Source: an uncultured Spirochaetaceae bacterium
GTDB taxonomy: Bacteria; Spirochaetota; Spirochaetia; Sphaerochaetales; Sphaerochaetaceae
NCBI GenBank assembly: GCA_944389145.1
Contig: CALXLH010000007.1
Coordinates: 1-34,909, forward strand
DNA: 34,909 nt
Direction: 5' to 3'
Shown piece after piece: positions 4,954 through 34,909 of this stretch (position 1 is its first letter; every line of letters starts with the position of its first letter). The notes below the pieces were generated by a model, which saw nothing but the letters and a program-made list of their open reading frames with translations, searched no databases and was not told where the DNA came from. A program made the translations under genes and the position numbers.

Positions 4954-4969
4954 GAAAGGAGGAAATACT

Positions 4970-6235: not shown

Positions 6236-6243
6236 TAGCTCAT

Positions 6244-6291
6244 GCTCCCCTTCGGGGGAGCGATGTCCAGGGGTTCCCACGGGGACTCCTG
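6244..6291 (+). other. Tandem stem-loops between binding-protein and permease genes
   Basis: Two GC-rich hairpins fill the 74-base gap. The first has GCTCCCC (6244-6250) and GGGGAGC (6255-6261) around a TTCG loop. The second has a TCCAGG stem start (6266-6271) closing with CCTGGA (about 6288-6293) and internal CCC/GGG pairing. There is no T-run, so they are probably not full terminators. Structures in this position often protect the upstream binding-protein mRNA and lower permease expression. Confidence 0.6.
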
Positions 6292-6309
6292 GAGATCGGA
6301 GGGAAAGCA

Positions 6310-8003: not shown

Positions 8004-8005
8004 GG

Positions 8006-12894: not shown

Positions 12895-12903
12895 GTCGCC
12901 TCC

Positions 12904-13374: not shown

Positions 13375-13391
13375 CTTGAATCTCCATCAAG

Positions 13392-13418
13392 AGGGGCTGC
13401 ACGCCTCGCACAGCCCCT
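13392..13418 (-). other. Stem-loop between tctC and tctB
   Basis: AGGGGCTG (13392-13399) and CAGCCCCT (13411-13418) form an 8-base stem around an 11-base loop in the 55-base gap. No T-run follows in the direction of transcription. It is probably an mRNA-stabilising or partial attenuation element, allowing more binding protein than membrane subunits. Confidence 0.6.
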
Positions 13419-13429
13419 TGCGAAAAGAC

Positions 13430-14395: not shown

Positions 14396-14418
14396 TCTAT
14401 TTCCTCCTTGCTATTACA

Positions 14419-15453: not shown

Positions 15454-15471
15454 CAGAGACCTCCTTTCAGG

Positions 15472-15500
15472 GTATTTTGTTAATCAGATTGACAAAATAC
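15472..15500 (-). promoter_or_regulatory. 29-base near-perfect palindrome, ROK repressor operator of the dehydrogenase-tct operon
   Basis: GTATTTTGTTAATC (15472-15485) and GATTGACAAAATAC (15487-15500) are mirror halves about A15486, with 13 of 14 positions paired. It lies between the ROK gene's stop and the start of the dehydrogenase gene, in the only sizeable gap before that operon. TTTTGT/ACAAAA arms resemble the operators of XylR-type ROK repressors. The adjacent ROK protein is the obvious binder. Confidence 0.72.
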
Positions 15501-15543
15501 TATAGAAATAGGATACCAGCTCATTCCGGTTTGTCAATAGAAA

Positions 15544-16770
15544 TTACAAATCAATGCGGTTTCTGGAGCTTCTAATCAGCGACAACATCAGCGGAATGAC
15601 ATCCTGAAGGACCAGGAAGGCTCCACCATGAGCTGCGGAAAAGCTTGCGATAGAAGCCTTCGAGGCACGGAAGCGCCCGAATGGAAGCACGCTCTTCGAG
15701 TAATAGTCATCCAATGAGGCGTTTACGAACACCACAAGCGAGTCAGATGTCCCCACCGGTCCGCCGATGACGACCTTGCGTGGATCCACGACATCAGCGA
15801 CCATGCAGATGACCTTGGCCAACGCAGTCGCGACCCGCCTTACCGCCGCGGCAGCCACGGCATCGCCGCTATCAGCGGCCTGGATTATCATCGAGGTGGT
15901 AAGCTCACCCTCGTGGCCCCTGAGAACGGATGCCTCATCACCCGCAGAGAGCAGTTCGATCACATAGTCATGGAGCGCGAATGAATTTGCCTCAGTTATC
16001 AGGCAGCCATATCTTCCGCATGAGCATTGCCGTCCATTGGGATTGACCTGCAGATGGCTTATACGTCCAGCGCTGAAATGCGCCCCCTGCATAAGCTTGC
16101 CATCGGAGAATATCGCGGAGCGGATACCTGAGCCGACACCGATGTATATCATGTCGCGGATCTTCTCAGGGTTTGCATAGCGGAACTCCGAGACACCTTC
16201 AAGCGTATGCCTATTCATGACATAGGCCTTCATTCCAGTCTCCTTCCTTACCCTCTCGGATATATTGAAGCTATCAAGCCAGCTCTGGTCGAAGGCGAAG
16301 AGAAGATCGCCTTTCGTGGTATCAACGATGCCGGGCACGCCGATGCCTATTCCAGGGATCAGCACATCGCCATATTCGGCCTGTATGCGCTTGATGCCAT
16401 CGATAAGCGCATCCTCCATGAGCGAGGGTGACGAGACATCGGCAAGATGCTCGAATGACCTGACTATATTCCCTGAAAGGTCGCAGATGACGAACTGCCA
16501 CTTACCGACATCAAGCGCGGCACCCACGACGCGCCAGTATGAGTCATCAATGAGCAAAGGTAGTCCAGGACGGCCTCTTCCGGTATCTATCGGATTCGTC
16601 CCTTCTGAGACAAGACGGGCAGAGATGAGGCTTGAGACTATGAGTGATACGGCGGTGCGGGATAAGGAAAGGTTCTTAGCGACCCCCGCCCTGGATAGCC
16701 CGCCGGGAAGATCGGCAATGCATTGATACACATTCCTAAGGTTCTCGAACTCCATATCCTCGTATCGCAT
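15544..16770 (-). CDS. ROK-family transcriptional repressor (NagC/XylR type)
   Basis: A 408-residue protein with an N-terminal winged helix-turn-helix (about residues 8-62, including SRAGVAKNLSLSRTAVSLIV and TNPIDTGRGRPGLPLLID) fused to a ROK sugar-kinase-like domain. GIGIGVPGIVDTTKGDLLFA and the zinc-binding GRQCSCGRYGCLITEANS (near residue 260) are the ROK hallmarks. The first ATP-site motif reads AALDVGKWQFVICDLSG, so kinase activity is doubtful and an effector-sensing role is likely. GAGG six bases before the ATG at 16770 supports that start; a TTG at 16773 is in frame. A TATAAT (minus strand, 16798-16793) may be its -10 box. It precedes the dehydrogenase-tct operon on the same strand and probably represses it. 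Confidence 0.92.
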   Translation of the reverse strand: MRYEDMEFENLRNVYQCIADLPGGLSRAGVAKNLSLSRTAVSLIVSSLISARLVSEGTNPIDTGRGRPGLPLLIDDSYWRVVGAALDVGKWQFVICDLSGNIVRSFEHLADVSSPSLMEDALIDGIKRIQAEYGDVLIPGIGIGVPGIVDTTKGDLLFAFDQSWLDSFNISERVRKETGMKAYVMNRHTLEGVSEFRYANPEKIRDMIYIGVGSGIRSAIFSDGKLMQGAHFSAGRISHLQVNPNGRQCSCGRYGCLITEANSFALHDYVIELLSAGDEASVLRGHEGELTTSMIIQAADSGDAVAAAAVRRVATALAKVICMVADVVDPRKVVIGGPVGTSDSLVVFVNASLDDYYSKSVLPFGRFRASKASIASFSAAHGGAFLVLQDVIPLMLSLIRSSRNRIDL

Positions 16771-16974
16771 CAATTACCTCACATAGTAAGGGATTATAAC
16801 AGAAAGGACCGAGATACAGGAAGGTCGTATCAATGCCTCGGCAGCTGTATTATTACCATATGGTCCAAGGTAGCTAACCTTTCGGCATTGCGTGAATCCA
16901 TCTGATTGAGGCTTGAGATATTACATATAGAATATATTTCCTATATTAGAATGATAATATCAATTAATATATGT

Positions 16975-21964: not shown

Positions 21965-22393
21965 ATGAAACGACCTCATGACTTCATCATCTACTGCATA
22001 TTCGGGGCCATGGCCACAGCGGTGAACATGCTTAGCTATGAGGTCCTCTACAGGATGATCGGACTCACGAATGTCGTTTCAGTCGCACTGTCGTGGTTCC
22101 TCGCTGTCACGTTCGCGTTCTTTACGAACAAGTACATCGTCTTCAGCGTGAAAGGCGCAAGGAACAGGCATTCATTCCTGGCAGAACTTGGATACTTCTA
22201 TGCATGCCGTGCGCTAAGCGGCGTGCTGGATATAGCGATAATGTTCGTAGCCGTCGACATCATGGCATGGAATCACACGCTCTGGAAGTTCATCGCGAAC
22301 CTCGCCGTTGGCATATGCAACTATCTTGCAGGACGATTCTTCATATTCGCGAAGAAGAAAGCTCAATCCATGGATAACGACGCAAGTACTTGA
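21965..22393 (+). CDS. GtrA-like membrane protein
   Basis: A 142-residue membrane protein with four likely helices, the size of GtrA/DPMS_TMD proteins that help to move lipid-linked sugars across the membrane. The first helix FIIYCIFGAMATAVNMLSYE carries the family's G-x-x-x-T-x-x-N pattern. SWFLAVTFAFFTNKYIVFS matches the conserved FxxNKxxVF motif, and WKFIANLAVGICNYLAGRFF IFAKK-type ending matches the usual NYxxxRxxVF close. The start at 21965 is chosen because it leaves the usual short tail before the first helix; the longer reading would begin inside a hairpin. Its 3' end overlaps the convergent kinase gene by 31 bases. Confidence 0.87.
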   Translation: MKRPHDFIIYCIFGAMATAVNMLSYEVLYRMIGLTNVVSVALSWFLAVTFAFFTNKYIVFSVKGARNRHSFLAELGYFYACRALSGVLDIAIMFVAVDIMAWNHTLWKFIANLAVGICNYLAGRFFIFAKKKAQSMDNDAST

Positions 22394-23406
22394 TCAATAC
22401 AAGGAATAAGGCTTGTCGCATCCCTTGAGCCAAGACTTATACCAGCTAAGGCCGTTGATACTGAAACAGCCTGTTCTGGAGACAATGGTTCGTCAAGCAA
22501 GAAGGAAGCTAGGAATCCTGCTACCGCGATATCACCAGCGCCAGTAGTAGATATTATATGCTCAACCTTTGGCGCTTCCATCCATATTTCCCTATCAGCC
22601 CACAGGGTAGCCTGATATTCCGTATGGAACAAAGCCGGTATGCGCTCCAACCTATCAAGGCCCGCAGTCCGAAGGAACATACCTCCACTTCCGTTCTTTA
22701 TAAGGACAATCGCTGCCCCACACTCTATGAAATAACGAGCAATATTGAAGATATCATCATGAGATGAACATGGATATAGAGGAACTATGTCGCTAACGCT
22801 AGGCATGAAGATATCACAATGGCCGAGTACCTTCTCAAGCATCGTACGGTGGTATGAGAAATCGACATCTCCACGTTTTATGGAACTTGTATCAGCACTT
22901 ATCGCAATACCCTTGTCATGAACATGGCGCAATAGCTCGAGAAGAGAAGCACCTCCATCAGTCCATAATCCGCCCAGATTAAACAGATATCCAAGGTGAA
23001 GTATTGAGGACTCCAAGGAAAGCGATGCGAGTATCTCATCAGCTTCAATCTGGTTCGAAGCCCCCTTCTTATGCAATATTATCCGATTACCGTCATCTGG
23101 CAGCAGTATGATCGAACATGATGTGGCAGCATCATTGGATATGATTATCGAAGCCTGGCAGCCGAATCCCGAGATAACGTCCTGCACCATATGTCCGAAC
23201 GCATCATTTCCAACCTTTCCGACAAGCTTTACAGGAAAACCAAGCCTATGAAGGGCACCCCCCGTATTGCCGACACATCCACCTATGCTTGCCTCTATCT
23301 GATCAAGATATGCCTGAGATCCACCGATAAGGCTAAGCTGGCTTCCTGCAGAAATGATCGGTGTCATATCAAAAACCAGCGAGCCTGCGACGGTTATTCC
23401 CTTCAT
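22363..23406 (-). CDS. PfkB-family carbohydrate kinase
   Basis: A 347-residue ribokinase-fold kinase. The N-terminal substrate region has GGCVGNTGGALHRLGFPVKL at 42-61 and VGKVGNDAFGHM at 62-73. The C-terminal signature STTGAGDIAVAGFLASFLL has the GAGD anion hole and catalytic Asp292. PfkB kinases phosphorylate sugars, sugar phosphates or nucleosides. The neighbouring FGGY kinase and class II aldolase suggest it makes a ketose bisphosphate (like tagatose-6-phosphate 1-kinase) or a 5-dehydro-2-deoxygluconate-type phosphate (like IolC). It starts 12 bases after the FGGY stop with GGAGGAGG in between, and is the last gene of the operon. Confidence 0.93.
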   Translation of the reverse strand: MKGITVAGSLVFDMTPIISAGSQLSLIGGSQAYLDQIEASIGGCVGNTGGALHRLGFPVKLVGKVGNDAFGHMVQDVISGFGCQASIIISNDAATSCSIILLPDDGNRIILHKKGASNQIEADEILASLSLESSILHLGYLFNLGGLWTDGGASLLELLRHVHDKGIAISADTSSIKRGDVDFSYHRTMLEKVLGHCDIFMPSVSDIVPLYPCSSHDDIFNIARYFIECGAAIVLIKNGSGGMFLRTAGLDRLERIPALFHTEYQATLWADREIWMEAPKVEHIISTTGAGDIAVAGFLASFLLDEPLSPEQAVSVSTALAGISLGSRDATSLIPCIDQVLASLSMD

Positions 23407-23418
23407 AGACCTCCTCCG

Positions 23419-24855
23419 TCAATAAACGAAGCCCTCGTAATACCTCATGGCAGCCTCTGCATCAGCAGAGATAGAATCATCAGGAACCACTGTCTCCGAT
23501 GAGGATAGCCTGTCCGATATCGAAGAAAGGACAGCATCATTACCAGAGGCAATAATGCCAGAGCAGACAGCACCAAGGGCGCATATCTCCTTCACTGGTA
23601 CATGCTTAAGACTCCGGCCCAGCACGGTAGCCTTATATCGCATGAATAGATCATTACCGATAGCGGCTCCACCGATATAGTAATCAGGATCCTTACGAGT
23701 AGAGAATGTAAGGAGATTATCAACTATATCACGGGTCTTCATAGCACAGTATGCATAGGCGCTCTTTATGAAATACTCTGCAGGCATCGACATATTAAGG
23801 CGATGAATATCGATCTCATTCCTCGCAAGGATATCCGGACTGAGAAAGTTGCCTCCACAGCGCATCAGGAATGCAAATCTTCCATCAAATACACTGCGCA
23901 TGCGCTCATTAATCTCTGCGTATCCGCAATCATCGGCCTCTAGGCCAAAATGATGCATCCAGAATGAAAGTATCGCTCCATATCGAGAACATGCACGGAA
24001 AACGATGAATTGCCCATCTCTGAATCCGTTTATCACGCCGCCATTGCTATTCAGGAAGGTCTTGTTACCATCGATCGCGTCAACATCATCAGTTATTATC
24101 GATACGGTAGAGCTGGTTCCCATTGAATCAAAGAGGAAGCTTTCAAAGCCCAGGACAGAATAAAGTCCGAATAATCCAATATCATGATCATGGCCGCCAA
24201 CGCCATACACCATCCCATCGGCAGAGCCAGCATAGGTCCCCATAGGGCGGATCTCACCTGGTTCATCCAAGCCAAGCTCATCAAGCAGACGATGATTCCA
24301 TTCCTTCCGAAACACATCATATGCATGACTACGACTGGCTAAGGAATAATCCCAGAAGCCACATCCGGTCTTCCTGTATACCTCATATGACGCAAGCGGA
24401 AGATAGCTTGCAGCCTTCAGCCGCTGCTCCCTGAATCGGGCCTCATACCACAGGATCTTCTCCAGAGACATCATCAACCCATTCACGGATACACCATCTA
24501 TCGAATAGCAGGTGTTGTCTTCGATGATCCTCATCTCCCCATCTGTCGGAGATGCATTCTTCTCATCCCAGAACACCGGAGCGGCAAGCACTCGGCCTGA
24601 CGGATCAATAGGAACTACCGTCTCCCCCACAGAAGAGAAGGAAACAGAAACAAGGTCCCCATGGCAGCGTATACGTGCTTCATCTATAAATGAATCGATG
24701 ATATCATCAAGGGCCCGTATATCAAAACATTTAAGCCCATGATCAATGAGCCGGGGCGTAGAAGATGATGCTGTGTATTCCACAGCACCATCCTCATTGA
24801 TCACAAGTATCTTGACGTTAGTTGATCCTATATCAATTCCAGCGAAGCACTTCAT
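23419..24855 (-). CDS. FGGY-family carbohydrate kinase
   Basis: A 478-residue kinase of the xylulokinase/gluconokinase superfamily. The first ATP/phosphate motif is FAGIDIGSTNVKILVINEDG at residues 4-23, with a catalytic-type Asp in the ADDIIDS...FWDEKN region. FDSMGTSSTVSIITDD and the late YIGGAAIGNDLFMRYKATVL followed by ALGAVCSGIIASGN form the adenosine-binding C-terminal domain. FGGY enzymes phosphorylate ketoses, polyols or aldonates, and the exact sugar is not readable. Its ATG overlaps the aldolase stop (ATGA), so kinase and aldolase are translationally coupled, suggesting consecutive steps in one pathway. Confidence 0.93.
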   Translation of the reverse strand: MKCFAGIDIGSTNVKILVINEDGAVEYTASSSTPRLIDHGLKCFDIRALDDIIDSFIDEARIRCHGDLVSVSFSSVGETVVPIDPSGRVLAAPVFWDEKNASPTDGEMRIIEDNTCYSIDGVSVNGLMMSLEKILWYEARFREQRLKAASYLPLASYEVYRKTGCGFWDYSLASRSHAYDVFRKEWNHRLLDELGLDEPGEIRPMGTYAGSADGMVYGVGGHDHDIGLFGLYSVLGFESFLFDSMGTSSTVSIITDDVDAIDGNKTFLNSNGGVINGFRDGQFIVFRACSRYGAILSFWMHHFGLEADDCGYAEINERMRSVFDGRFAFLMRCGGNFLSPDILARNEIDIHRLNMSMPAEYFIKSAYAYCAMKTRDIVDNLLTFSTRKDPDYYIGGAAIGNDLFMRYKATVLGRSLKHVPVKEICALGAVCSGIIASGNDAVLSSISDRLSSSETVVPDDSISADAEAAMRYYEGFVY

Positions 24856-25718
24856 GCCTCAACCATCTTCCCTGCGCTCCCGAACACATCGATCTTATGC
24901 TCTACGATCTCCTGGGTCTTAGCCCTCACGAGAGCCTGGATCTTCCTGACATCACCATGGTCAGCCGTAGCATACGCAGCTTTCTGGACGTCAAAATTTC
25001 CATGGACCTTGAGTTCGGTTCCGACATTGATCTTTGTGATACCGAGGGCTATTGCCTTCTTGAAATCCTCATCAGGAACACCAGAACCACCATGAAGCAC
25101 AAGCGGAACATCGATTGCTGCACGGATAGCTGCAATCCTATCAAAATCAAGCTTAGGAGTCGATTTGTAGAACCCATGAGCGGTTCCTACTGCAATGGCA
25201 AGAGCACCGACATTCGTCTGCTTTACAAACTCAACTGCATCCTCGACCTTCGTAAACAAGGCATCACGCTCGTCGACAGAGATATCATCCTCTGTTCCAC
25301 CTATATGCCCAAGCTCTGCCTCGACAGTCACACCATAGCGAGAAGCATACTCAACAACCCTGCAGGTTCTTTCGATATTCTCCTCGAAGGGATACGCAGA
25401 AGCATCGATCATAACGGAAGTATAACCATAATCAATACATCTTTTTATCCTTTCGAAATCCGAGCAATGATCAAGATGGATTGCTATATCGATATCAGGA
25501 TACTCATGGCTTATCGTCTCAATCGTTGAGTAACACATCTCATCGCCCATCTCGTTCATAGTCAAGACTGCAGGCATGATGATGACAGGGCTCTTCTTTG
25601 CGGCAGCAGCCTGGGCAATGCCCTGGATGCTGGAAAGATCAGGGAAATTAAAGGCTCCGACAGCATAGTGGCCTTTCTGAGCCTTCTTCAGCAGATACGA
25701 CATCGTGACTAATGACAT
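24852..25718 (-). CDS. Class II (metal-dependent) ketose-bisphosphate aldolase
   Basis: A 288-residue class II aldolase of the FbaA/GatY/KbaY/IolJ group. The catalytic Asp83 and zinc His84 lie in AIHLDHCSDFERIKRCIDYG. EAELGHIGGTEDD (133-145) holds a metal-region Glu, GTAHGFYK (178-185) and LVLHGGSGVPDEDF (206-219) hold the other zinc histidines (181 and 209), and TKINVGTELK (228-237) is the phosphate loop. It splits a ketose bisphosphate or keto-sugar phosphate into DHAP plus an aldehyde. Length and motifs fit tagatose- or fructose-bisphosphate aldolases better than any other class. The following FGGY gene overlaps its stop. Confidence 0.95.
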   Translation of the reverse strand: MSLVTMSYLLKKAQKGHYAVGAFNFPDLSSIQGIAQAAAAKKSPVIIMPAVLTMNEMGDEMCYSTIETISHEYPDIDIAIHLDHCSDFERIKRCIDYGYTSVMIDASAYPFEENIERTCRVVEYASRYGVTVEAELGHIGGTEDDISVDERDALFTKVEDAVEFVKQTNVGALAIAVGTAHGFYKSTPKLDFDRIAAIRAAIDVPLVLHGGSGVPDEDFKKAIALGITKINVGTELKVHGNFDVQKAAYATADHGDVRKIQALVRAKTQEIVEHKIDVFGSAGKMVEA

Positions 25719-25737
25719 TTGTTATACTCCTAAATAA

Positions 25738-25759
25738 GGGAATGCCATTCGGCATTCCC
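25738..25759 (-). terminator. Stem-loop between the binding-protein and aldolase genes
   Basis: GGGAATGCC (25738-25746) and GGCATTCCC (25751-25759) pair perfectly around a 4-base loop. On the minus strand the hairpin is followed by TTATTTAGGAG, giving a short T-rich tail before the aldolase ribosome-binding site. It may be a partial terminator that leaves the binding protein more abundant than the enzymes. Confidence 0.65.
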
Positions 25760-25783
25760 ATTTGTATCAAGCTATTATCTGGA

Positions 25784-27049
25784 TCAGACCCAGATCTCCA
25801 TCCAGCTCTCCTGAGCTGCCTGGCAAGCCTCTTCAGCCGTGCACTGACCATCAAAGAACTTCTGGATCTCAGTTGCAAACCTGCGGCCCATCTCATCAGA
25901 ATTCGGGAGGGCAAGGTACTCATTTACGAGCGTGCTTCTCTGGAAGATATCGAAAGCCTGCTGGTAGATCGGGTTTGGATCATTAACCCAATCAGGAACG
26001 ACAGAGGTATTTCCAGGGAATCCCTTTGCCAGCGAAGCGAACTTCTGGTTGACTTCCGGGCTGATGAGATACTCGATAAGCCTCCATGCTTCATCCGGAT
26101 GCTCTGACGACGCGCTTATTCCAACGCCCCAGTCTGCATACCTAATACCACGCTGACCCGTGTAGTCATCCTCTGCCGGAACATCGGTAAGCACAAGATT
26201 GAGATCAGGATTCCTTTCCAGAAGCATATTAAGCGCGGCCAATGAAGAGAAAGCGAACGCAGCATTTCCATTTGCGAATTCCTCGTTCTTATCCTGCTCC
26301 ATCTTTGCGAATGCTCCAGGAGAAACCGCCGTATCATAAAGATCCTTGGCATAATTGAGGACATCATACATATGCTGGTTGCAAAGATTTGGCTTTCCGT
26401 CCTTAAGCATGGAATAGCCATTTGCCCAATAGAGGGACATAAGCTCAACACGAAGACCGGTAGAGGACTGTACTGGCATTGGAAGAATCCAGCCATACTT
26501 ATTCTCTGCAGGATTCGTTACAGCCTTCGCCATCTCTGCAAACTCCGATCTATTCTTCGGCGGCTCCGTATAGCCAGCTTCATTGAGAAGATCCATATTG
26601 CAGTAAAGGGGATACAGGAAGGTAACGAGAGGGAACATCATACTGTCATCATGAACCTTCGTAATGATGGAGATATCTTCAGTATATGGACTCTCTGCAA
26701 GATAATCATCAAGAGGAATGACTCCACCAGCCATCGTCAGATCATATACCCACTTACCATCCATTCCGACAACATCGGCAAGCGTACCTGTAGCGGTACC
26801 GGCGATGATCTGATCATAGATAGAGGCATTAGGTCCGGAAATGAGCGTTACCTTGATATCCGGGTTAGCTGCCTCGAATTCATCCATTATCGCCCTAAGG
26901 GATCCTTCAGGAAGCTCCGGTTCCCACCACTGAATAAAGCTGATTTCCACGACTTCATCATCAGAACTCTCACTTGCTCCCCTAGCGAAAGCAGGAGCAA
27001 CGCAAAGCAATGCAGCAAGAAGGAGTACAAATACTTTCCTTTTCACCAT
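25784..27049 (-). CDS. Sugar ABC transporter substrate-binding protein (CUT1 type)
   Basis: A 421-residue family 1 solute-binding protein. Its signal peptide covers about residues 1-22 (basic VKRK, then FVLLLAALLCVAPAFA), and the mature protein begins with a Ser/Glu-rich linker typical of spirochaete periplasmic proteins. VEISFIQWWEPELPEGSLRA, IAGTATGTLADVVGMDGKWV and EAWRLIEYLISPEVNQKFAS are family features. GGAGG six bases before the ATG at 27049 defines the start; the longer in-frame reading has none. It should serve the MalF/MalG pair about 4 kb upstream on the same strand, because no other permeases are nearby. It heads the segment with the aldolase and two kinases. Confidence 0.93.
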   Translation of the reverse strand: MVKRKVFVLLLAALLCVAPAFARGASESSDDEVVEISFIQWWEPELPEGSLRAIMDEFEAANPDIKVTLISGPNASIYDQIIAGTATGTLADVVGMDGKWVYDLTMAGGVIPLDDYLAESPYTEDISIITKVHDDSMMFPLVTFLYPLYCNMDLLNEAGYTEPPKNRSEFAEMAKAVTNPAENKYGWILPMPVQSSTGLRVELMSLYWANGYSMLKDGKPNLCNQHMYDVLNYAKDLYDTAVSPGAFAKMEQDKNEEFANGNAAFAFSSLAALNMLLERNPDLNLVLTDVPAEDDYTGQRGIRYADWGVGISASSEHPDEAWRLIEYLISPEVNQKFASLAKGFPGNTSVVPDWVNDPNPIYQQAFDIFQRSTLVNEYLALPNSDEMGRRFATEIQKFFDGQCTAEEACQAAQESWMEIWV

Positions 27050-27097
27050 TGTTAACCTCCAAGTTATTTTGTTGCAGTATACACTTGAAGTCACAGC

Positions 27098-27126
27098 ATT
27101 TTTGATTTATACGACCAATATTTTTG
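27098..27126 (-). promoter_or_regulatory. Tentative AraC-type direct repeat upstream of the binding-protein gene
   Basis: ATTTTTG occurs at 27098-27104 and again at 27120-27126, a 22-base offset (two helical turns), within the very AT-rich gap between the AraC gene and the binding-protein gene. Direct repeats at this spacing are typical AraC-family activator sites. The repeat is short and AT-rich, so chance is possible. Confidence 0.35.
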
Positions 27127-27212
27127 CTTTTTTATATTTTATTTGTAATTTTTTTATAATCTATTGGAATATTTTAACAATGACTGCTTCAAACTATACA
27201 ACTAGTTTACCA

Positions 27213-28046
27213 TCAATGAAGGTTACGTACCATGTTCTGATATTGCTTAGGACTCATTCCGACACGTTTCTTGAAGGTACGTGAGAAATGAGGATAGTTA
27301 TTAAATCCGACCTTATTACATACCCCTTCGGCAGAGACCGCATCCTTAAGAAACTCCATTGCCTTCGATATACGATATTCTATCAGATACTGAATCGGGG
27401 TACGCCCTGTGAACCGACGGAACAAGCCACAAAGATCATTACGGCTGATGCCAAATTTAAGAGAGAGTCCGTCTATCGTTATATCTTCCCAATAATTATC
27501 CCTTATATAAGTAACTATCTGATAGAAACGAGAATTTCCAGGAAGAGGAAGGTCATCCTGGGACAATCCGTACGCCTGCCTGAATTTCATATTGGCAATA
27601 AGCAATATATATGAGATAAGAAGTCGCTTGGAGAACGATGAACCATAATGATCACCAAAATCAGAGAGGCGTTGAAGACGATCAAGCTGATCTCTGATCT
27701 GCGCAGCATCCGCCTCTGAGAGGCTTATGACATTAACATCTACAAAATCCTTATACCGGAAGCACTCAGAAAGATCAGTAGCTGATGTGGAAAGGTCATC
27801 CACATACGATTTCATGATATATAACTCATACCTTGAGAAATCGGCCTCAGGCGATGAGATAAGGTGCAGATTATCATCTTCGCCAAGGAGGATGATACTG
27901 TCCTTCTCTATATGGATATGATGATTATTTATCACTACCTGAAAAGGCCCGGCGATATTGAATATGATAATGTATCGGTCACGATGCCTATATCTAGGCC
28001 TATCATCGATGCCCTCCGAAAAATAGAGCTCATATCCCTCATCCAT
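27213..28046 (-). CDS. AraC-family transcriptional regulator
   Basis: A 277-residue regulator with an N-terminal cupin-like sensor (about residues 20-80, including IIIFNIAGPFQVVINNHHIH) and a C-terminal double helix-turn-helix. The first HTH is ITIDGLSLKFGISRNDLCGL followed by FRRFTGRTPIQYLIEYRISK. The second is VCNKVGFNNYPHFSRTFKKR with the family-typical VGMSPKQYQ end. It probably activates the sugar operon in response to the imported sugar. No ribosome-binding site is visible and the ATG lies two bases after the DeoR stop, so translation likely depends on coupling to DeoR. Confidence 0.93.
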   Translation of the reverse strand: MDEGYELYFSEGIDDRPRYRHRDRYIIIFNIAGPFQVVINNHHIHIEKDSIILLGEDDNLHLISSPEADFSRYELYIMKSYVDDLSTSATDLSECFRYKDFVDVNVISLSEADAAQIRDQLDRLQRLSDFGDHYGSSFSKRLLISYILLIANMKFRQAYGLSQDDLPLPGNSRFYQIVTYIRDNYWEDITIDGLSLKFGISRNDLCGLFRRFTGRTPIQYLIEYRISKAMEFLKDAVSAEGVCNKVGFNNYPHFSRTFKKRVGMSPKQYQNMVRNLH

Positions 28047-28048
28047 GA

Positions 28049-28804
28049 TCAGGCAAGCACGACCTGAACATCATGATTCTTCAGGATATTCAGCATATCA
28101 GGATCAGGCATGCTATCCGTAACAAGCACATTGATGTTATCGAATGAGCAGAAATTAAACACTGCAGGCTGACCGATCTTCGTGCTATCAGCAAGTAGGA
28201 ATACCCTACGGCCGTGCTTAACAATAGTCTTCTTCAGTTCAGCCTCAAGATAGATATTGGTTGATAATCCTATAGGAAGGATGCTTGTCGTACCGATGAA
28301 GACCATATCAAACGTCATAGAGCTTATCGTTTCTATCACAGATATTCCTATAAAGGAATTAGGAGAATAATAATATGATCCACCTATACCTATGAGGTTA
28401 ATATTCGGATACTTGGCAACCTCATTCATAACTGTCAGGCTATGCGTTATCACAGTTATGTTCTTCCTATCCTTTATGAATGGAACTATACAGACTGCAG
28501 TCGAGCCTGAATCAATGAAGATAAGAGCATTATCAGAGACGAACTCGCCAGCAACCTTGCCGATACGCATCTTGAGGTCGAAGTTCCGGAGCTGCCTTTC
28601 GGATACGGTCGTCAGGACGGTGGAATTATTTGCTGAAGCAACTCCGCCATAGACCTTCTTCACGTTTCCCCGCGCAGTAAGTTCCTCGATATCCCTCCGT
28701 GCGGTATTTATCGATATATCAAACTTCTCCGCAATGTCATGCAATGACATGGAACCTCGTTCGATTATGCATTGTTCCATCCTATTTATGCGGTCAGCTC
28801 TCAT
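28049..28804 (-). CDS. DeoR-family transcriptional regulator
   Basis: A 251-residue repressor of the usual DeoR/GlpR/IolR size. The N-terminal HTH (about residues 5-57) reads RINRMEQCIIERGSMSLHDI and then AEKFDISINTARRDIEELTA, followed by the typical KKVYGG wing. The C-terminal DeoRC sensor domain includes FIDSGSTAVCIVPFIKDRKN and VFLLADSTKIGQPAVFNFCS, where the conserved D-S-x-K-x-G loop binds sugar phosphates. It probably senses a phosphorylated intermediate made by the kinases in this locus. It is followed directly by the AraC gene, so the locus combines a sugar-phosphate-responsive repressor with an activator. Confidence 0.94.
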   Translation of the reverse strand: MRADRINRMEQCIIERGSMSLHDIAEKFDISINTARRDIEELTARGNVKKVYGGVASANNSTVLTTVSERQLRNFDLKMRIGKVAGEFVSDNALIFIDSGSTAVCIVPFIKDRKNITVITHSLTVMNEVAKYPNINLIGIGGSYYYSPNSFIGISVIETISSMTFDMVFIGTTSILPIGLSTNIYLEAELKKTIVKHGRRVFLLADSTKIGQPAVFNFCSFDNINVLVTDSMPDPDMLNILKNHDVQVVLA

Positions 28805-28828
28805 CTTCTAATTTCCTTAGTAACAATA

Positions 28829-28839
28829 TACAACTTGTA
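28829..28839. promoter_or_regulatory. Short palindrome in the DeoR promoter
   Basis: TACAACTTGTA is symmetric apart from its centre (TACAA/TTGTA). On the minus strand it directly abuts TATATT, a possible -10 box for the DeoR gene 25 bases downstream. It could be an autoregulatory operator. Confidence 0.35.
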
Positions 28840-28878
28840 GGAGAACCCGGCAATCAGGAAGCGGGGCATAACCCGATC

Positions 28879-29940
28879 TTACCCAACAATGGGACCACGT
28901 ATAAGGAACACCTCCATCAGGCCCTTCCTTGATCCAATCGAAACTTCCTTCTCTGATGCTGGGATAAAGAATTGATCTCCCTGCCTGATATCCATGGCTT
29001 CATCACCTGAAACCATCACACCATCTCCTCGATAGCAGTATAACCCATAGAAAGAACCCTCATCCGGAAGCTTTAATGTCTTTCCCTCTCTTATCATGGC
29101 CTTATCCATAGCAAAACATGGAGTGTCCATATAATCAACTATCTTATATAGAGATACCCCATCCTCATCCAAGCGTGGATATGATCTAAGGAAAAGCTGC
29201 ATCCTCGCCTCATCAGGCGTAAATGTCGTATAATCACAACAATCGAAGATACTATCGAAACCAAGCCCTAGATGGCACTGCTCGTCTGAAATCTGCAACC
29301 CCTGCGGAGTGATCTTCTCAAAACGCAATGTATAATCAGTAGGTTCCTGAATCTCTATGAGAAACGTATCAGCACCGATCGCATGAGGCAGGCCTCCGGG
29401 AATCAGAACCGTATCCCCTTCCTTTACGGAATGCCTTATCAGGCAGTCAAGCAATCCCTGCGTGTCCTGCTTATCGAAAAGATCTTTCCACAGCTCTCTG
29501 GTAACCCCTTCCCGAAAACCGGCATATACGCAAGGATCAGATCCTCCTAATATATACCAACACTCAGTCTTACCAAATGGAGATGAGAAGTACTCCATTG
29601 CCTTCAGCTTATCCGGATGCACCTGTATCGTCAGCCGCTCTGCGCTATCAATGAGTTTCGTAAGTACGCCAAGCCGTGGGCCATACTTACGAACATGGCT
29701 GCTACCAAGGAAAAGACTTGGACTATCAGAGATCAGGCTTTTAAGCGGGAGGTTGCCTAACGAAGGAATCAATGAAAGGCCTTCCCCCTCCTTCTTCCCC
29801 GTCGAAGCCGTATCCGAAACTATCCATTCCTCTGGATAATTTGATCCCAGAGCACCTGGCATCATGCCATGGATCACATCAAGATTATCCCCACCTGTAT
29901 ATGTCCTCCATACCCTGGGATTATCAAGCTTATATATCAT
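28879..29940 (-). CDS. Class I mannose-6-phosphate isomerase (ManA) homologue
   Basis: A 353-residue cupin isomerase of the type I phosphomannose isomerase family. The zinc site is visible: LTIQVHPDKLKAMEYFSSPF carries the Gln and His ligands, FGKTECWYILGG the Glu, and LIPGGLPHAIGADTF the second His. IKLIDSAE-type and QEPTDYTLRFE segments agree with bacterial ManA proteins. ManA proteins interconvert mannose 6-phosphate and fructose 6-phosphate, and relatives isomerise other aldose phosphates. The start at 29940 has AGAGGTG about six bases upstream; the longer in-frame reading lacks one. It is divergent from the IolB-like isomerase, and both likely feed the kinase-aldolase pathway. Confidence 0.9.
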   Translation of the reverse strand: MIYKLDNPRVWRTYTGGDNLDVIHGMMPGALGSNYPEEWIVSDTASTGKKEGEGLSLIPSLGNLPLKSLISDSPSLFLGSSHVRKYGPRLGVLTKLIDSAERLTIQVHPDKLKAMEYFSSPFGKTECWYILGGSDPCVYAGFREGVTRELWKDLFDKQDTQGLLDCLIRHSVKEGDTVLIPGGLPHAIGADTFLIEIQEPTDYTLRFEKITPQGLQISDEQCHLGLGFDSIFDCCDYTTFTPDEARMQLFLRSYPRLDEDGVSLYKIVDYMDTPCFAMDKAMIREGKTLKLPDEGSFYGLYCYRGDGVMVSGDEAMDIRQGDQFFIPASEKEVSIGSRKGLMEVFLIRGPIVG

Positions 29941-29964
29941 GTAAGGCACCTCTATCTTAAGACA

Positions 29965-29979
29965 GATTATCATATAATC
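29965..29979. promoter_or_regulatory. Inverted repeat A in the divergent isomerase promoter
   Basis: GATTAT (29965-29970) and ATAATC (29974-29979) are mirror halves around CAT. The site is 25 bases upstream of the ManA-type start and shares TTATCAT with the second repeat at 30003-30020. Confidence 0.45.
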
Positions 29980-30002
29980 CGAATCTTTCACCAAGATTTA
30001 CC

Positions 30003-30020
30003 AATCATGTTATCATGATT
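30003..30020. promoter_or_regulatory. Inverted repeat B overlapping the IolB-like gene's promoter
   Basis: AATCATG (30003-30009) and CATGATT (30014-30020) form a perfect 7-base repeat around TTAT. TATCAT at 30012-30017 may be the -10 box of the IolB-like gene, so a bound regulator would block it. It ends two bases before the upstream candidate ATG. Confidence 0.5.
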
Positions 30021-30022
30021 TC

Positions 30023-30799
30023 ATGATCATTCCTGCAAATAAGAAGAAAATGAACGTAATCTGTTCTTCAGATAGCGACATGCTTCTGAATGTCACCCAT
30101 ATCAAGCTCTCGAAAGGCGAGACCTTCCAGGATCAAGGCCACGAGGAACGAGCATTTCTCCTGATAACCGGTGAAATTACGGTGAGGCTGGACGGAAAGG
30201 ATCATCATGTAAGTCGAAGGTCATGCTTCGATGATGATCCGATCGTATTCCATCTATCGCAAGACACTCCGATATTCATCACAGCCTGTCAGGACTCAGA
30301 GTTATGCATCGAAGGATGCCCGAATGACAATGACTTCAAGCCAGTAGTCTACATGGAAGGAGACTCCATGCTATCAAGGCCTGCAGAAAATACTCTTGAC
30401 GGTATGGCAGATAGGATAATCAGGACAGTCTTCGATGGCGATTCGGCACCATATTCGAACATGGTTCTCGGCGAGGTTGTTGGGCTACCGGGTCGATGGG
30501 CCAGCTACCCACCGCATGACCATCCGCATCCTGAGGTATACCTATACAAATTCCTGCCTGATGACGGATATGGAATATCCATAATCGAAGATGATGCTTC
30601 TATAGTAAGGAGCGATTATGCCTCGCTTATCCCGGGCCTCAAGACACACAGCCAGGTAGCCGCTCCAGGTTACGCAATGTATTATGTCTGGATGATTCCA
30701 CACCTCAAAGGCAATAGATGGCTACAGACAACAAGGAACTATAGAAAAGAGTTCGAATGGGTGCTTACAAATCCACGTCTATGGCACCCTGCAAGGTAA
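30023..30799 (+). CDS. IolB/KduI-like cupin isomerase
   Basis: A 258-residue two-cupin protein of the IolB (5-deoxy-glucuronate isomerase)/KduI group. Diagnostic is VVGLPGRWASYPPHDHPHPE with VYLYKFLPDDGYG, where HDHPHPE supplies two zinc histidines and the Glu, and AAPGYAMYYVWMIPH, which matches the PGY-YYLW motif. The insertion that IolB carries between the histidines and the Glu is missing here. It probably isomerises an aldose or uronate to a ketose in the cytoplasm. The start is uncertain: ATG 30023 directly follows a palindrome and has no ribosome-binding site, while ATG 30050 has a weak AAGAAG before it. It is divergent from the ManA-type gene. Confidence 0.85.
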   Translation: MIIPANKKKMNVICSSDSDMLLNVTHIKLSKGETFQDQGHEERAFLLITGEITVRLDGKDHHVSRRSCFDDDPIVFHLSQDTPIFITACQDSELCIEGCPNDNDFKPVVYMEGDSMLSRPAENTLDGMADRIIRTVFDGDSAPYSNMVLGEVVGLPGRWASYPPHDHPHPEVYLYKFLPDDGYGISIIEDDASIVRSDYASLIPGLKTHSQVAAPGYAMYYVWMIPHLKGNRWLQTTRNYRKEFEWVLTNPRLWHPAR

Positions 30800-30872
30800 G
30801 CGATAACTCAAAAATGCCTAACTCGCTATCCTTCGAACATATCATAAGAGTTATCAGTTAATCAAAAATAAT

Positions 30873-30901
30873 CCCCCATACGCCATGAAGGCATATGGGG
30901 G
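30873..30901 (-). terminator. Rho-independent terminator of the permease operon
   Basis: The arms at 30873-30884 and 30890-30901 (CCCCCATA...TATGGGGG) form a 12-base stem; the one mismatch on the plus strand becomes a G-U pair in the minus-strand transcript. On the minus strand it is followed by ATTATTTTTGATT, a good U-tract. It lies 30 bases past the MalG-type stop. Confidence 0.88.
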
Positions 30902-30931
30902 TCCCCCAAAAGAAGATAGAATATAAAACTC

Positions 30932-31777
30932 TCAGCTCTTAACCGAACCTGCTGTCATTCCAGCAACAACGTATTTCTGACAGAAAAGATAGATTATGAG
31001 TACTGGTATGGATCCGAGGAAACTCATAGCCATCATTTCATTCCATACGTAGAAATGCTCACCGATAAGAAGCTGAATTCCAACAGGCACCGTCCTCATC
31101 GACTGAGACTGCGTAAGCGTAAGTGCATATAGGTACTCATTCCATGAAAGGATAAACGTATACACCGCAGTAGCAACGATTCCCGGTAAGGAGATCGGTA
31201 CCAAGATCCTCCAAAGTATGGTCATCGATGACCCACCATCAACCATGACCGCCTCATCAAGGGCTTTGTTTATCGTATTAAAATAACCGGTCATCATAAG
31301 AACGCCATAAGGTAATGTAAATACGAGATAAGTTAATATAAGGGCCCAGAGCGTATCATGAAGATTCATCATCACGATCATCGAGAAATATGGAATCATC
31401 AAAGCGATAGGAGGTATTGCCTGAGTGTTGATGATAAACATATTCATAAGCTTCTTTCCCCTAAACTCGAATCTGCTGAATGCATATCCTGCAAATATCG
31501 AAATCACAAGGGTAAGTGCGGTAACCACCAAGGAAACGATGATGCTATTCGCAAAATACCTCATCCTTGTGGAAGAATGGAATATCGTATCATAGGCATC
31601 CAGCGTAGGTTCCTTTGGGATAAGCGTCTGAGGAATTGCAAATACCTCGTTATTCGGCTTAAGAGAAGTCGAAATCATCCAAAGGAATGGGAATATCGAA
31701 TATATCAGGCCGATAAGAAGACCGATCATAAGAAGTGTCGTGGCCACCTTACGCCTGCGAGCGATTGATTTAATCAT
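30932..31777 (-). CDS. Carbohydrate ABC transporter permease, MalG type
   Basis: A 281-residue MalG-type permease with six likely helices. A basic tail precedes LIYSIFPFLWMISTSLKPNN, the characteristic first helix and TSLKP motif. The EAA loop that contacts the ATPase reads KALDEAVMVDGGSSMTILWR and then ILVPISLPG, and AVYTFILSWNEYLYALTLTQ is the standard fifth-helix segment. It should pair with the MalF-type protein encoded four bases upstream; GGAGGAG at the end of that gene serves as its ribosome-binding site. A clear terminator follows, so the two permeases form their own transcript, separate from the binding-protein gene. Confidence 0.94.
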   Translation of the reverse strand: MIKSIARRRKVATTLLMIGLLIGLIYSIFPFLWMISTSLKPNNEVFAIPQTLIPKEPTLDAYDTIFHSSTRMRYFANSIIVSLVVTALTLVISIFAGYAFSRFEFRGKKLMNMFIINTQAIPPIALMIPYFSMIVMMNLHDTLWALILTYLVFTLPYGVLMMTGYFNTINKALDEAVMVDGGSSMTILWRILVPISLPGIVATAVYTFILSWNEYLYALTLTQSQSMRTVPVGIQLLIGEHFYVWNEMMAMSFLGSIPVLIIYLFCQKYVVAGMTAGSVKS

Positions 31778-31781
31778 CTTT

Positions 31782-32681
31782 CTACTCCTCCTTTGCCTTC
31801 TGCAGCCTGATATAGAAATAAGAGATGATCATCGACAGAATCAGGATGATGACCGAACTCGTAGAAGCCCTTGCAAAATCAAGGCGGCTGAATGCATCTT
31901 TGTATATATATGTACCCATAACTTCTGTCGAAGTTCCCGGACCTCCGCCGGTCACCGTCCAGACAAGGGCAAATACCCTCATCGTAAGGATGATATCAAG
32001 CATGGATGTGCTAAGCAGGATAGGCTTGAGCTGCGGTAGCGTGATGTACCAGAACTTCTGCCATCCATTGCAGCCATCAAGCGTGGCAGCTTCATAGTAG
32101 TCCTTGCTTATGCCCTGCAATCCAGCCAGAAGCGTAACCATATAATATGGATATCCAGACCATATATTCACGAATATCAATGCAGGCATCGCCAGATCAA
32201 TCTCAGAAAACCAAGCATATTTCTCAGAGATTATGTTAGCCCCCATCAATACATAATTTATTATTCCATCTGGGCTGAGAAGAAGTCTCCAAACGATGGC
32301 AACGATAGTTACCGTCAAAACCCAAGGCAGGATAAAGAGCAATCTCATGATATTCCTAAGCGCGCTAGGAATCAGGTCTGAATTAAGCATTAACGCGAAT
32401 ACAAGGCCCAGCAATAGATGGAATACAACGCTGATGATAGTGTAATAAGTGGTATTCCATACCGAAGTCCAGAATACATCATCCTGGAAAACCTTCACGT
32501 AGTTCGCAAATCCAACGAAATTAGAGTTTTTAGTGACGACCACCTTATCAAAGAATGAATACCAGATAACCATCACTATCGGAACGAGCATGAGGATAAT
32601 CAACAGGATAATGGCAGGAGCCACGAAGAAATACGGCGTTGCATTGCTTCGCAGCTTTCCTTTCCTCTTAATCAAATCCAT
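31782..32681 (-). CDS. Carbohydrate ABC transporter permease, MalF type
   Basis: A 299-residue MalF-type permease with six likely helices. It opens with a basic tail and the helix YFFVAPAIILLIILMLVPIV. NYVKVFQDDVFWTSVWNTTY is the conserved periplasmic segment, DYYEAATLDGCNGWQKFWYI the EAA loop, and WTVTGGGPGTSTEVMGTYIY the late CUT1 motif. It is the first gene of a two-gene minus-strand transcript, with GGAGG nine bases before the ATG. Its partner binding protein is probably the one at 25784-27049. As with the other importer here, no ATPase gene is present. Confidence 0.94.
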   Translation of the reverse strand: MDLIKRKGKLRSNATPYFFVAPAIILLIILMLVPIVMVIWYSFFDKVVVTKNSNFVGFANYVKVFQDDVFWTSVWNTTYYTIISVVFHLLLGLVFALMLNSDLIPSALRNIMRLLFILPWVLTVTIVAIVWRLLLSPDGIINYVLMGANIISEKYAWFSEIDLAMPALIFVNIWSGYPYYMVTLLAGLQGISKDYYEAATLDGCNGWQKFWYITLPQLKPILLSTSMLDIILTMRVFALVWTVTGGGPGTSTEVMGTYIYKDAFSRLDFARASTSSVIILILSMIISYFYIRLQKAKEE

Positions 32682-32785
32682 AGAATCTAACCTCCATCTA
32701 GAAAAACAACCAAGAGATTGCTTGACGGTGATTTGAATTTATCATACTACCAGCACTAAATTTGCTTTTTCATACTTAATTTTTT

Positions 32786-32814
32786 ATAAATTTATACTTA
32801 TTCACATAAATTTA
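32786..32814. promoter_or_regulatory. Direct repeat in the divergent permease/ADP-kinase promoter region
   Basis: ATAAATTTA occurs at 32786-32794 and at 32806-32814, 20 bases apart, in an AT-rich 238-base divergent gap. The two-turn spacing would suit the AraC-family regulator of this locus. A second element, TTTTGTTGCA at 32864-32873 (followed by AAA, giving TTTTG/CAAAA symmetry), recurs at 27067-27076 before the binding-protein gene. Confidence 0.38.
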
Positions 32815-32919
32815 CCAAAGACTTGGCCATATATTTCTGGTTTTATCAAGAAGTTCATAACTTTTTTGTTGCAAAACTTAGATTGAGGCCTAAAATCAAG
32901 CGAAGGAGGGTCTTACGAC

Positions 32920-34119
32920 ATGAATGCAAAAATCGCACTAGGACTGAACAACGGTGTCGATTATGAGATCAGATGGGATTCATCGGTAATCGAAAAGATG
33001 ATAATAGAGAAAGGAATGAAGGCATCCGATATAAGGAAGCTAAGCATAATAGATTCCGATTGGGACCTTCTGTCCTCTATACTTTACTATGTCAGTACAG
33101 GCGAAGGCGCATCCGCATATGTCTCTGATATAAAGATAAACTTCGATTTTGCATCCAAGTTTGATTATAAGGTCACCATAGGAGGAGCAGGCACAAGAGC
33201 GGCCATCGCTATAGATAAGCTTGGATACGGTTCAATAGTCCACCTCGTATCCACGAACAATGAAACAAGAACCATGCTCCCGCGTTCCACGATCACCTAT
33301 AGCGGCAATGATCATGATACGCTATACCCTCATCTGATAGTCCAATTCACAGAGGGGACGCATATCAAGGCAAACGATATAGATATCACCAGTCCCAGGG
33401 CGAACAGGATCATGTACCTTCACGACCCAGACATCATGACAATGCCGCTTAATGAAGACTTCTTCAAGGAAGCGGGAAAATGCAATGTACTCCTGATAGG
33501 AGGTTTCACAACCATCCCAAACCCAAAAGATGGACTGGCTAAGGCAGAAGAGGTACTTGGATACATAAGGAAATATGTAGGTCCAGGGACAGAGGTCTAC
33601 TATGAGGATTCCTGCCCTCCTAGAGGAATAAGCGAAGGTCACACTGCGATATGGAGGACTGTTGCTAGTAACATATCAATCTTCGGACTCAATGAAGATG
33701 AGCTGCAGAACCATATCGGAAGGAAGATCAATCTTCTCGATGCCAATGATGTAATCAAAGCACTACAGGACCTTGAAAGGCTTATTCCTTGTAAAAACTA
33801 TGTCCTCCATACAAAATATTATGCATTGGCTTATGGAGAGAACGCAAAGCGATATAGGGATTCCCTGGTATCAGGCATCGCGCTTGCAACAACGCGGCTC
33901 GTGCATGGCGACTATTATGGAAGCAATGAGGTTAAGGAAATAATGGCAAGGCCAGCCGATCCAAATGGCAGACAGTTCTCAGAAATAATGGATAAGCTTG
34001 ACAACGGCATCATCGCGTTGCCATCATTCCTAGTCACAGAAAAGAATGTGACAACGATAGGACTAGGAGATGCTTTCGTGGGAGGATTCCTAGCAAAGCT
34101 ATCAGAGCATGAGTGCTGA
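32920..34119 (+). CDS. ADP-dependent glucokinase/phosphofructokinase-family protein
   Basis: A 399-residue member, by motif, of the ADP_PFK_GK family (ribokinase fold). Visible are VTIGGAGTRAAIAIDKLG at 85-102, LIVQFTEGTHIKANDI at 139-154, SPRANRIMYLHDPD at 158-171, LLIGGFTTIP at 191-200 and SIFGLNEDEL at 253-262. NYVLHTKYYALAYG at 293-306 follows, and the catalytic end TTIGLGDAFVGGFL at 378-391 has the GLGD motif with Asp384 as probable base. Family members phosphorylate glucose or fructose 6-phosphate using ADP and are best known from archaea. It is shorter than archaeal enzymes, so substrate and donor are unproven. AAGGAGG nine bases before the ATG gives a clear start. It is divergent from the permeases and ends just before an insertion sequence. 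Confidence 0.82.
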   Translation: MNAKIALGLNNGVDYEIRWDSSVIEKMIIEKGMKASDIRKLSIIDSDWDLLSSILYYVSTGEGASAYVSDIKINFDFASKFDYKVTIGGAGTRAAIAIDKLGYGSIVHLVSTNNETRTMLPRSTITYSGNDHDTLYPHLIVQFTEGTHIKANDIDITSPRANRIMYLHDPDIMTMPLNEDFFKEAGKCNVLLIGGFTTIPNPKDGLAKAEEVLGYIRKYVGPGTEVYYEDSCPPRGISEGHTAIWRTVASNISIFGLNEDELQNHIGRKINLLDANDVIKALQDLERLIPCKNYVLHTKYYALAYGENAKRYRDSLVSGIALATTRLVHGDYYGSNEVKEIMARPADPNGRQFSEIMDKLDNGIIALPSFLVTEKNVTTIGLGDAFVGGFLAKLSEHEC

Positions 34120-34160: not shown

Positions 34161-34909
34161 CCCTTAGACCGGGGCCTGTAAGATAGTTTGTGTAAATGGG
34201 AAATGCTACTGTAAGGAAGGAGATACAGCAGATAACCAAGAAAAGCACAAAGGAAAAGGATGCCATCGACCAGATACTCGACCAGCTGGACTTGCATGGA
34301 ATGGCGCAGGAGGAGCTGTTTGGGGCAGAGGGACTGGCGAAGAAGCTTACAGCCCGGCTGCTGAACAAGGCGCTTGAAGCCGAGATGGATACCCATCTGG
34401 GCTATAAGAAGCATTCGAACGAGGGGGATGGCAGCGGAAACAGCCGCAACGGGTATTCAGAGAAGACTGTCATCACCGGGGATGGGGAGGCGCAGATACA
34501 GGTTCCCCGGGACCGCAACAGCACATTCGAGCCCGAGATCGTGAAGAAGCATGAGAGGCGGCTGCCGCTGTTCAACGACCAGATCATATCGCTCTACTCC
34601 AGGGGGATGACGACCAGGGACATACAGTCGCATCTGAAGGAGATCTACGATGTGGATGTCTCTGCCGAGCTCATAAGCAATGTCACCGATGCCGTGCATG
34701 AGGATGTGAGGGCCTGGAGGACAAGGCCGCTGGAGAGCATGTATCCGATCGTCTATCTTGATGCGGTGAGGGTGAACAGCCGGGAGAGTGGGAAGAACGT
34801 GAACAAGGCGCTATACATCGCTCTGGCCATTACGATGGAGGGACATAAGGAAGTCCTCGGGTTCTACATTTCAGAGAACGAAGGGGCGAAGTTCTGGATG
34901 GGCGTGCTT
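34161..34909 (+). mobile_element. IS256-family insertion sequence, left part (cut by window end)
   Basis: The transposase gene at 34196 identifies the element. Its left end is not precisely defined: the terminal inverted repeat probably lies in about 34161-34195 (GGGGCCTGTAAGATAGTTTG region), ahead of the start codon, but the right end needed to confirm it is outside the window. Its GC content is visibly higher than that of the sugar cluster beside it. Confidence 0.75.
34196..34909 (+). CDS. IS256-family (Mutator type) transposase, N-terminal part
   Basis: The frame from ATG 34196 stays open to the end of the window, giving the first 238 residues of a protein that is usually about 400. LTARLLNKALEAEMDTHLGY, NSRNGYSEKTVITGDGEAQI and PRDRNSTFEPEIVKKHERRL are standard IS256 features, as is ISLYSRGMTTRDIQSHLKEI. 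YPIVYLDAVRVNSRESGKNV contains the first catalytic Asp, and GHKEVLGFYISENEGAKFW matches the conserved stretch after it. The reading frame shows no break, so the element may be active. No Shine-Dalgarno sequence precedes the ATG. The codon style is more GC-rich than in the genes immediately to its left. Confidence 0.93.
   Translation, partial: MGNATVRKEIQQITKKSTKEKDAIDQILDQLDLHGMAQEELFGAEGLAKKLTARLLNKALEAEMDTHLGYKKHSNEGDGSGNSRNGYSEKTVITGDGEAQIQVPRDRNSTFEPEIVKKHERRLPLFNDQIISLYSRGMTTRDIQSHLKEIYDVDVSAELISNVTDAVHEDVRAWRTRPLESMYPIVYLDAVRVNSRESGKNVNKALYIALAITMEGHKEVLGFYISENEGAKFWMGVL

Follow-up and report, generated by a model that had tools for sequence, protein, structure and literature searches.

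A candidate two-module sugar catabolic locus with an ADP-GK/PFK-family kinase in an uncultured Spirochaetaceae bacterium

The ADP-dependent sugar kinases known so far come mainly from archaeal glycolysis, with one animal enzyme. Among the described systems closest to the locus analyzed here, three have a class II aldolase: the YdjH-YdjI pair of E. coli, the KbaY/GatY pathways, and sulfo-EMP2, whose families are SqvD, SqiK, and SqiA and whose kinase belongs to PF00365 (PMC9594981). Here, we analyze a sugar locus at positions 22363-34119 of a contig from an uncultured Spirochaetaceae bacterium. The window is the whole contig (G000:C7, 34909 bases), from an assembly of 2.13 Mb that is 95% complete.

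Our reading, to which we give a little under an even chance, is that of a catabolic locus for one sugar, assembled as a mosaic of two modules. The sugar would enter through a CUT1 importer and be converted to a ketose by a cupin isomerase of the ManA type or, possibly, of the IolB type. Both ends of the ketose would then be phosphorylated by an FGGY kinase and an ADP-GK/PFK-family kinase (ADPK); in this genome, a PfkB kinase might act as an alternate. The resulting bisphosphate would be cut by a class II aldolase (ALD) into dihydroxyacetone phosphate (DHAP) and a triose phosphate. A DeoR regulator might sense a phosphosugar intermediate. The gene set matches no described pathway that we found, in agreement with a previous sequence-only reading, which had proposed an aldolase-centered ketose route outside the standard pathways.

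Conserved core of the locus

Pfam and NCBIfam scans confirmed each of the eleven genes named in that reading. All three kinases and both isomerases score under the NCBIfam cut-offs, and the only one that the aldolase clears is that of a broad ketose-bisphosphate aldolase subfamily; thus, the family names give no substrate. The genes of the aldolase, ADPK, FGGY, and the importer are the following:

24852-25718, minus strand: class II ketose-phosphate aldolase (ALD); PF01116, 327 bits; Arg258 aligned with FbaA Arg331
32920-34119, plus strand: ADPK, ADP-GK/PFK-family (PF04587) sugar kinase; glucokinase-type pocket with Glu changed to Ser65
23419-24855, minus strand: FGGY carbohydrate kinase; PF00370/PF02782; under all NCBIfam cut-offs; unassigned Spirochaetota clade
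25784-27094, minus strand: CUT1 solute-binding protein (SBP); Pfam; ortholog of the ADPK-module SBPs
30932-31777, minus strand: CUT1 permease, MalG-like; Pfam; counterpart in genome G084 70% identical
31782-32681, minus strand: CUT1 permease, MalF-like; Pfam; G084 counterpart 63% identical

ADPK was retrieved from only five of the 393 genomes surveyed in the phylum, this one included; the survey genomes are drafts, and counts across them are not phylogenetically independent. Further ADPK genomes were reached through FGGY (G084), through an SBP profile (G087, G905, and G018), behind a fetched locus (G503), by extending a locus (G055), and by surveying the phylum to which an Oscillospiraceae genome belongs (G834, G504, and G805), which brought the number of those mapped to fourteen. 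All fourteen harbor a class II aldolase at most 8 kb from ADPK, and twelve of them the CUT1 importer (SBP, MalF, and MalG homologues), the contig of G343 ending inside MalF; the ABC importer of G503 and G055 is of a different kind. Most of the Spirochaetota ADPK loci have a DeoR gene alongside; elsewhere the neighbor is an RpiR gene (G834) or a ROK gene (G029). The reverse search, which is independent, gave the same association: an SBP match at E<=1e-100 was found in nine of the 395 genomes of the class, and ADPK and an aldolase lie beside the SBP in every one of the nine.

Among the mapped ADPK loci, G084 is the only other one with FGGY and ManA, and no locus besides that of the window has a counterpart of PfkB or IolB. 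The recurrent unit is the CUT1 importer, ADPK, a class II aldolase, and a regulator; the remaining genes are accessories. The earlier idea of the whole set as one conserved route was not borne out: in the relatives, the importer, ADPK, and the aldolase are kept together, but PfkB and IolB are not, nor, mostly, are FGGY and ManA, a pattern that goes part of the way towards the refutation foreseen in that reading. G084 is the relative closest to the window and holds FGGY, ALD, SBP, ManA, DeoR, AraC, ADPK, MalF, and MalG together. The minimal ADPK modules carry one kinase and one aldolase, with no isomerase.

It is plausible, although we would not give it even odds, that bacteria have a module undescribed in the literature searched, made up of the CUT1 importer, an ADPK that phosphorylates C1 of a free ketose, and a YdjI-like class II aldolase dedicated to it. 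This module would occur across several families of Spirochaetota and also in the phylum to which the Oscillospiraceae genome belongs, and in the window it would have been rewired with FGGY and a bisphosphate-type aldolase. No description of a bacterial ADPK-aldolase module was found in that literature, which excluded most subscription papers. If true, the conserved module would assign the ADP-dependent kinase family to catabolism, with a substrate that can be tested, and the window would show how such a route may be rewired, the kinase-aldolase pair being exchanged and the importer kept.

Other genes were noticed beside the mapped loci. Immediately before the importer-aldolase-ADPK genes of G834 lies one for a GH3 glycosidase (L056:14965-17451), which hints that a glycoside may be the form in which the sugar arrives. 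A cupin of the D-lyxose isomerase family adjoins ADPK and the aldolase in G503 (L055:5047-5586), hinting at the configuration of the ketose. Between ADPK and ManA, G084 carries a probable IS110-type transposase (identified by eye) and an IlvD/EDD-family dehydratase (L007:2710-6200).

The aldolase and the mosaic origin of the locus

The active-site motifs of ALD are intact (HLDH, GTAHG, HGGSG, and DVR, the last with Arg258), and the zinc ligands His84, His181, and His209 are kept together with Arg258, as in a class II ketose-bisphosphate aldolase. Arg258 aligns with Arg331 of E. coli FbaA (mature numbering, DPR motif), which we take to contact the C6 (distal) phosphate. The arginine is present in ALD, in its G084 counterpart, in the rest of their clade, in FbaA, KbaY, and GatY, and in the two further class II aldolases encoded in this genome; it is absent from the aldolases of the minimal (ADPK-only) modules and from YdjI. 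According to this pattern, ALD is predicted to act on a ketose bisphosphate and the minimal-module aldolases on a ketose 1-phosphate, so that the presence or absence of the arginine amounts to a residue-level prediction of a change of substrate. The proposal in the sequence-only reading of a ketose converted to a bisphosphate and then to DHAP and an aldehyde phosphate fits Arg258; its choice of PfkB for the second phosphorylation fares less well (see below).

Since the genome carries two further class II aldolases, ALD need not be a glycolytic enzyme. No second ALD copy at a comparable identity level was found in the 48 genomes of the genus; three of them have an aldolase 58-59% identical to it, in a different cluster, and the importer is unrelated in the two where it could be reached.

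The families scoring best with ALD are fructose and tagatose bisphosphate aldolases, its best PDB match is AgaY/KbaY, and the PfkB protein weakly matches a tagatose kinase. These matches would fit an ordinary tagatose- or sorbose-type pathway, in which a ketose is converted to its 6-phosphate and bisphosphate and cleaved by a KbaY/GatY-like aldolase to DHAP and glyceraldehyde 3-phosphate. We consider this improbable: ALD falls short of every equivalog cut-off, with 328 of 423 bits against the best-scoring family, KbaY and GatY form a clade of their own in the aldolase tree, no KbaZ/GatZ partner was found in scans of the locus (the genome was not searched for one), and ManA and IolB would be left unexplained.

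That tree was built by maximum likelihood and covers 30 aldolases. In it, ALD and its G084 counterpart, 77% identical to each other, fall into a clade (97/100) with the FGGY-linked aldolases of G082, G488, and G491 and one aldolase of G005. This clade stands apart from the ADPK-linked aldolases, whereas the importer and ADPK of the window are those of the ADPK module. The locus is thus a mosaic in which importer plus ADPK and FGGY plus ALD have separate histories, and ALD may have replaced an earlier aldolase.

The Sphaerochaetaceae clusters of G082, G488, and G491 share with the window the aldolase (58-59% identical) and FGGY (30-34%), but a 1-phosphofructokinase (1-PFK)-type PfkB and an IMPase-like protein replace ADPK and ManA and, in G488 and G491, the CUT1 importer is unrelated. 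They had also been considered as an apiose-type route with a split transketolase, a candidate dropped when NCBIfam assigned the 318-residue protein to the 1-PFK-type kinases and the 274-residue protein to the IMPase-like ones.

The finding of ADPK and FGGY-ALD apart in other genomes would also suit a composite locus, with ADPK, FGGY, and PfkB each serving a different sugar, imported or isomerized, and only the aldolase shared. Three kinases, two isomerases, and two regulators, and the lack of fixed partners for PfkB and IolB, point the same way. There is, however, a single importer, and the nine genes from FGGY to MalG are held together in G084; we regard the composite as unlikely.

Kinases, isomerases, and regulators

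ADPK scores 78 bits against PF04587 (cut-off 27), and its AlphaFold model (mean pLDDT 90.4) has only ADP-GK/PFK proteins as top Foldseek matches. The motifs GxGD (GLGD) and NxxE (NEDE) and E229 are intact, and HxE is replaced by YxE. The pocket residues were read from an alignment with solved relatives. AncMsPFK binds fructose 6-phosphate through Lys179, Asn181, and Arg212 (PMC7948494); ADPK has Tyr136, His138, and Asp169 at these positions, and hence no ADP-phosphofructokinase pocket. His138 and Asp169 are of the glucokinase type, and the glucose-orienting Glu (Glu90), kept in most other members, is Ser65 in the window and in G084. These residues make ADPK look like an enzyme that phosphorylates a free sugar, though not glucose. 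A role as a PFK-type kinase acting on a sugar 6-phosphate in the second step, also considered, is weakened by the same residues. A plasmid search with ADPK gave no match, and those with FGGY, PfkB, and ManA gave distant matches only.

The FGGY protein keeps the catalytic Asp, within GGHDH, in the alignment. In its tree, where deep branches are weak, it belongs to a Spirochaetota clade apart from XylB, LyxK, FucK, RhaB, AraB, and GlpK. The third kinase is:

22363-23406, minus strand: PfkB/ribokinase-family sugar kinase; PF00294, 84 bits; distant YdjH relative

Its best PDB match is YdjH (3h49/3in1), at 47 bits. In G084, no PfkB lies near FGGY, ADPK, and the 77% identical aldolase, and in G082, G488, and G491 FGGY and the ALD-type aldolase are paired with the 1-PFK-type PfkB; two kinases per aldolase are therefore the common pattern in the ALD clade. 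From the G084 arrangement, ADPK is a likelier second kinase than PfkB.

Some points weigh against a bisphosphate route through FGGY and ADPK. All of its enzymatic steps are inferred. If ADPK acts on the free sugar, as its pocket suggests, FGGY or PfkB would be left for the phosphorylated one. Moreover, an FGGY-linked aldolase of G005 (L008:8584), outside the ALD clade, lacks the arginine despite having FGGY and a kinase of the 1-PFK type as its flanking genes.

Chief among the rivals is a single-phosphate route similar to that of YdjH-YdjI or of fucose and rhamnose, in which one kinase would form a ketose 1-phosphate and the class II aldolase would split it into DHAP and an aldehyde that carries no phosphate. 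An iron-type alcohol dehydrogenase (Fe-ADH) from elsewhere would reduce this aldehyde. The free-sugar type of the ADPK pocket, the composition of the minimal modules, their YdjI-like aldolases devoid of the distal-phosphate arginine, the relationship of PfkB to YdjH, and a lactaldehyde-reductase-like Fe-ADH adjoining MalG in G084 all suit it. We nevertheless judge it rather unlikely for the window, since the window and G084 aldolases belong to a different clade and keep the arginine, and the window locus encodes neither an aldehyde reductase nor an aldehyde dehydrogenase.

The two isomerases, either of which might supply the ketose in the bisphosphate route, are:

28879-29994, minus strand: ManA/phosphomannose isomerase type I-like; zinc ligands kept; G084 counterpart 48% identical
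30023-30799, plus strand: KduI/IolB-family cupin isomerase; PF04962, 124 bits; orphan, divergent

The zinc ligands and the Arg of ManA are intact in the alignment to E. coli ManA. The IolB-family protein keeps the metal motif (PPHDHPHPE...HSQ) and has 46-52% identity to the IolB proteins encoded in inositol clusters of spirochaetes; furthermore, an IolG-like Gfo/Idh gene, below the IolG cut-off, lies at 14419-15453. Both would fit a share in myo-inositol catabolism, an explanation that we find scarcely credible: IolD was not found over its cut-off in the 95% complete genome (a paralogue only, 219 of 715 bits), and the IolB-family protein sits on a long branch and scores 74 bits against an IolB cut-off of 205, outside the 5-deoxyglucuronate isomerases. 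The substrate of this protein cannot be 5-deoxyglucuronate from a local IolD, and the exclusion of inositol catabolism in the sequence-only reading holds for this assembly. The IolG-like gene is part of a region (11392-16773) with a TctA-TctB-TctC tripartite transporter and a ROK protein.

In Erysipelotrichaceae (L031:3907-12972 and L027), an IolB-family gene lies with a transaldolase, an Fe-ADH, a fructose-type phosphotransferase system (PTS), and a class II aldolase, and no IolD was seen in these clusters; this is another non-inositol setting for IolB-like isomerases. Their transaldolase and Fe-ADH had also provided a sulfoquinovose lead, which was rejected. In Sphaerochaeta (L014:3238-10832 and L015), an IolB-family gene accompanies a CUT1 importer, a split transketolase, and a ribulokinase-like FGGY kinase.

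The remaining features of the locus are:

27213-28046, minus strand: AraC-family regulator; Pfam; G084 counterpart 40% identical
28049-28804, minus strand: DeoR-family regulator with a DeoRC phosphosugar-sensor domain; Pfam; G084 counterpart 50% identical
25738-25759, no strand: perfect 9-bp inverted repeat between SBP and aldolase; possible attenuator

ManA, DeoR, AraC, SBP, ALD, FGGY, and PfkB follow one another on the minus strand from 29994 to 22363; IolB diverges at 30023 on the plus strand, and ADPK, at 32920, is divergent from MalF and MalG, both on the minus strand. The ALD stop and the FGGY start share four bases (24852-24855), which makes their translational coupling, already suggested from the letters, plausible. 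A search for operator motifs common to the intergenic regions of the locus gave only short 10-mers, mostly AT-rich. Directly downstream of ADPK, an IS256-family transposase (34196-34909) is cut by the contig end; an assembly break inside such a gene makes a mobile flank likely.

No ATPase gene for the CUT1 importer lies within the locus. Positions 3934-9937 of the window hold another CUT1 importer, a LacI regulator, and a 645-residue protein (8000-9937); this protein matches no Pfam or NCBIfam family, and neither does a 404-residue open frame at 225-1439.

In a single-sequence search, the best match of the SBP is SmoF. This, together with the common logic of isomerase, kinase, and class II aldolase, recalls sulfo-EMP2-type breakdown of sulfoquinovose through a class II sulfofructose-1-phosphate aldolase, which we hold to be very improbable here: SmoF is no longer first when a profile is used, the SqvD family (PF02952) has no match in the genome, and the locus has no sulfoquinovosidase, DUF4867 gene, or PF00365 kinase.

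Comparison with described systems

The locus shares with sulfo-EMP2 (SqvD, SqiK, and SqiA) the general scheme of isomerase, C1 kinase, and class II aldolase, and differs from it in the absence of the SqvD family and of a sulfoquinovosidase and in its kinase families. As in the KbaY/GatY pathways, there is a class II aldolase with an Asp-x-Arg motif; unlike them, the locus has an aldolase of a separate clade, no KbaZ/GatZ, no PTS, and extra kinases and isomerases, and it does not belong to the KbaYZ/GatYZ systems. The E. coli ydj cluster likewise groups a regulator, a sugar kinase (YdjH, an octuluronate kinase), and a class II DHAP aldolase (YdjI, an octuluronate-1-phosphate aldolase), and YdjH is a distant relative of the window PfkB. 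However, YdjI lacks the distal-phosphate arginine that ALD has as Arg258, which sets ALD apart from the YdjH-YdjI type, and the ydj cluster lacks FGGY and ADPK as well as cupin isomerases and an ABC importer. Lastly, ADPK shares with the archaeal ADP-GK/PFK family the fold (Foldseek E 6e-23 to ancMT), the NxxE and GxGD motifs, and the conserved Asp, Arg, His, and Asp of the glucokinases; it differs in its length (399 residues versus about 450-470), in having Tyr-Tyr-Glu for His-x-Glu and Ser65 for the glucose-orienting Glu, and in its setting within a bacterial importer-aldolase module.

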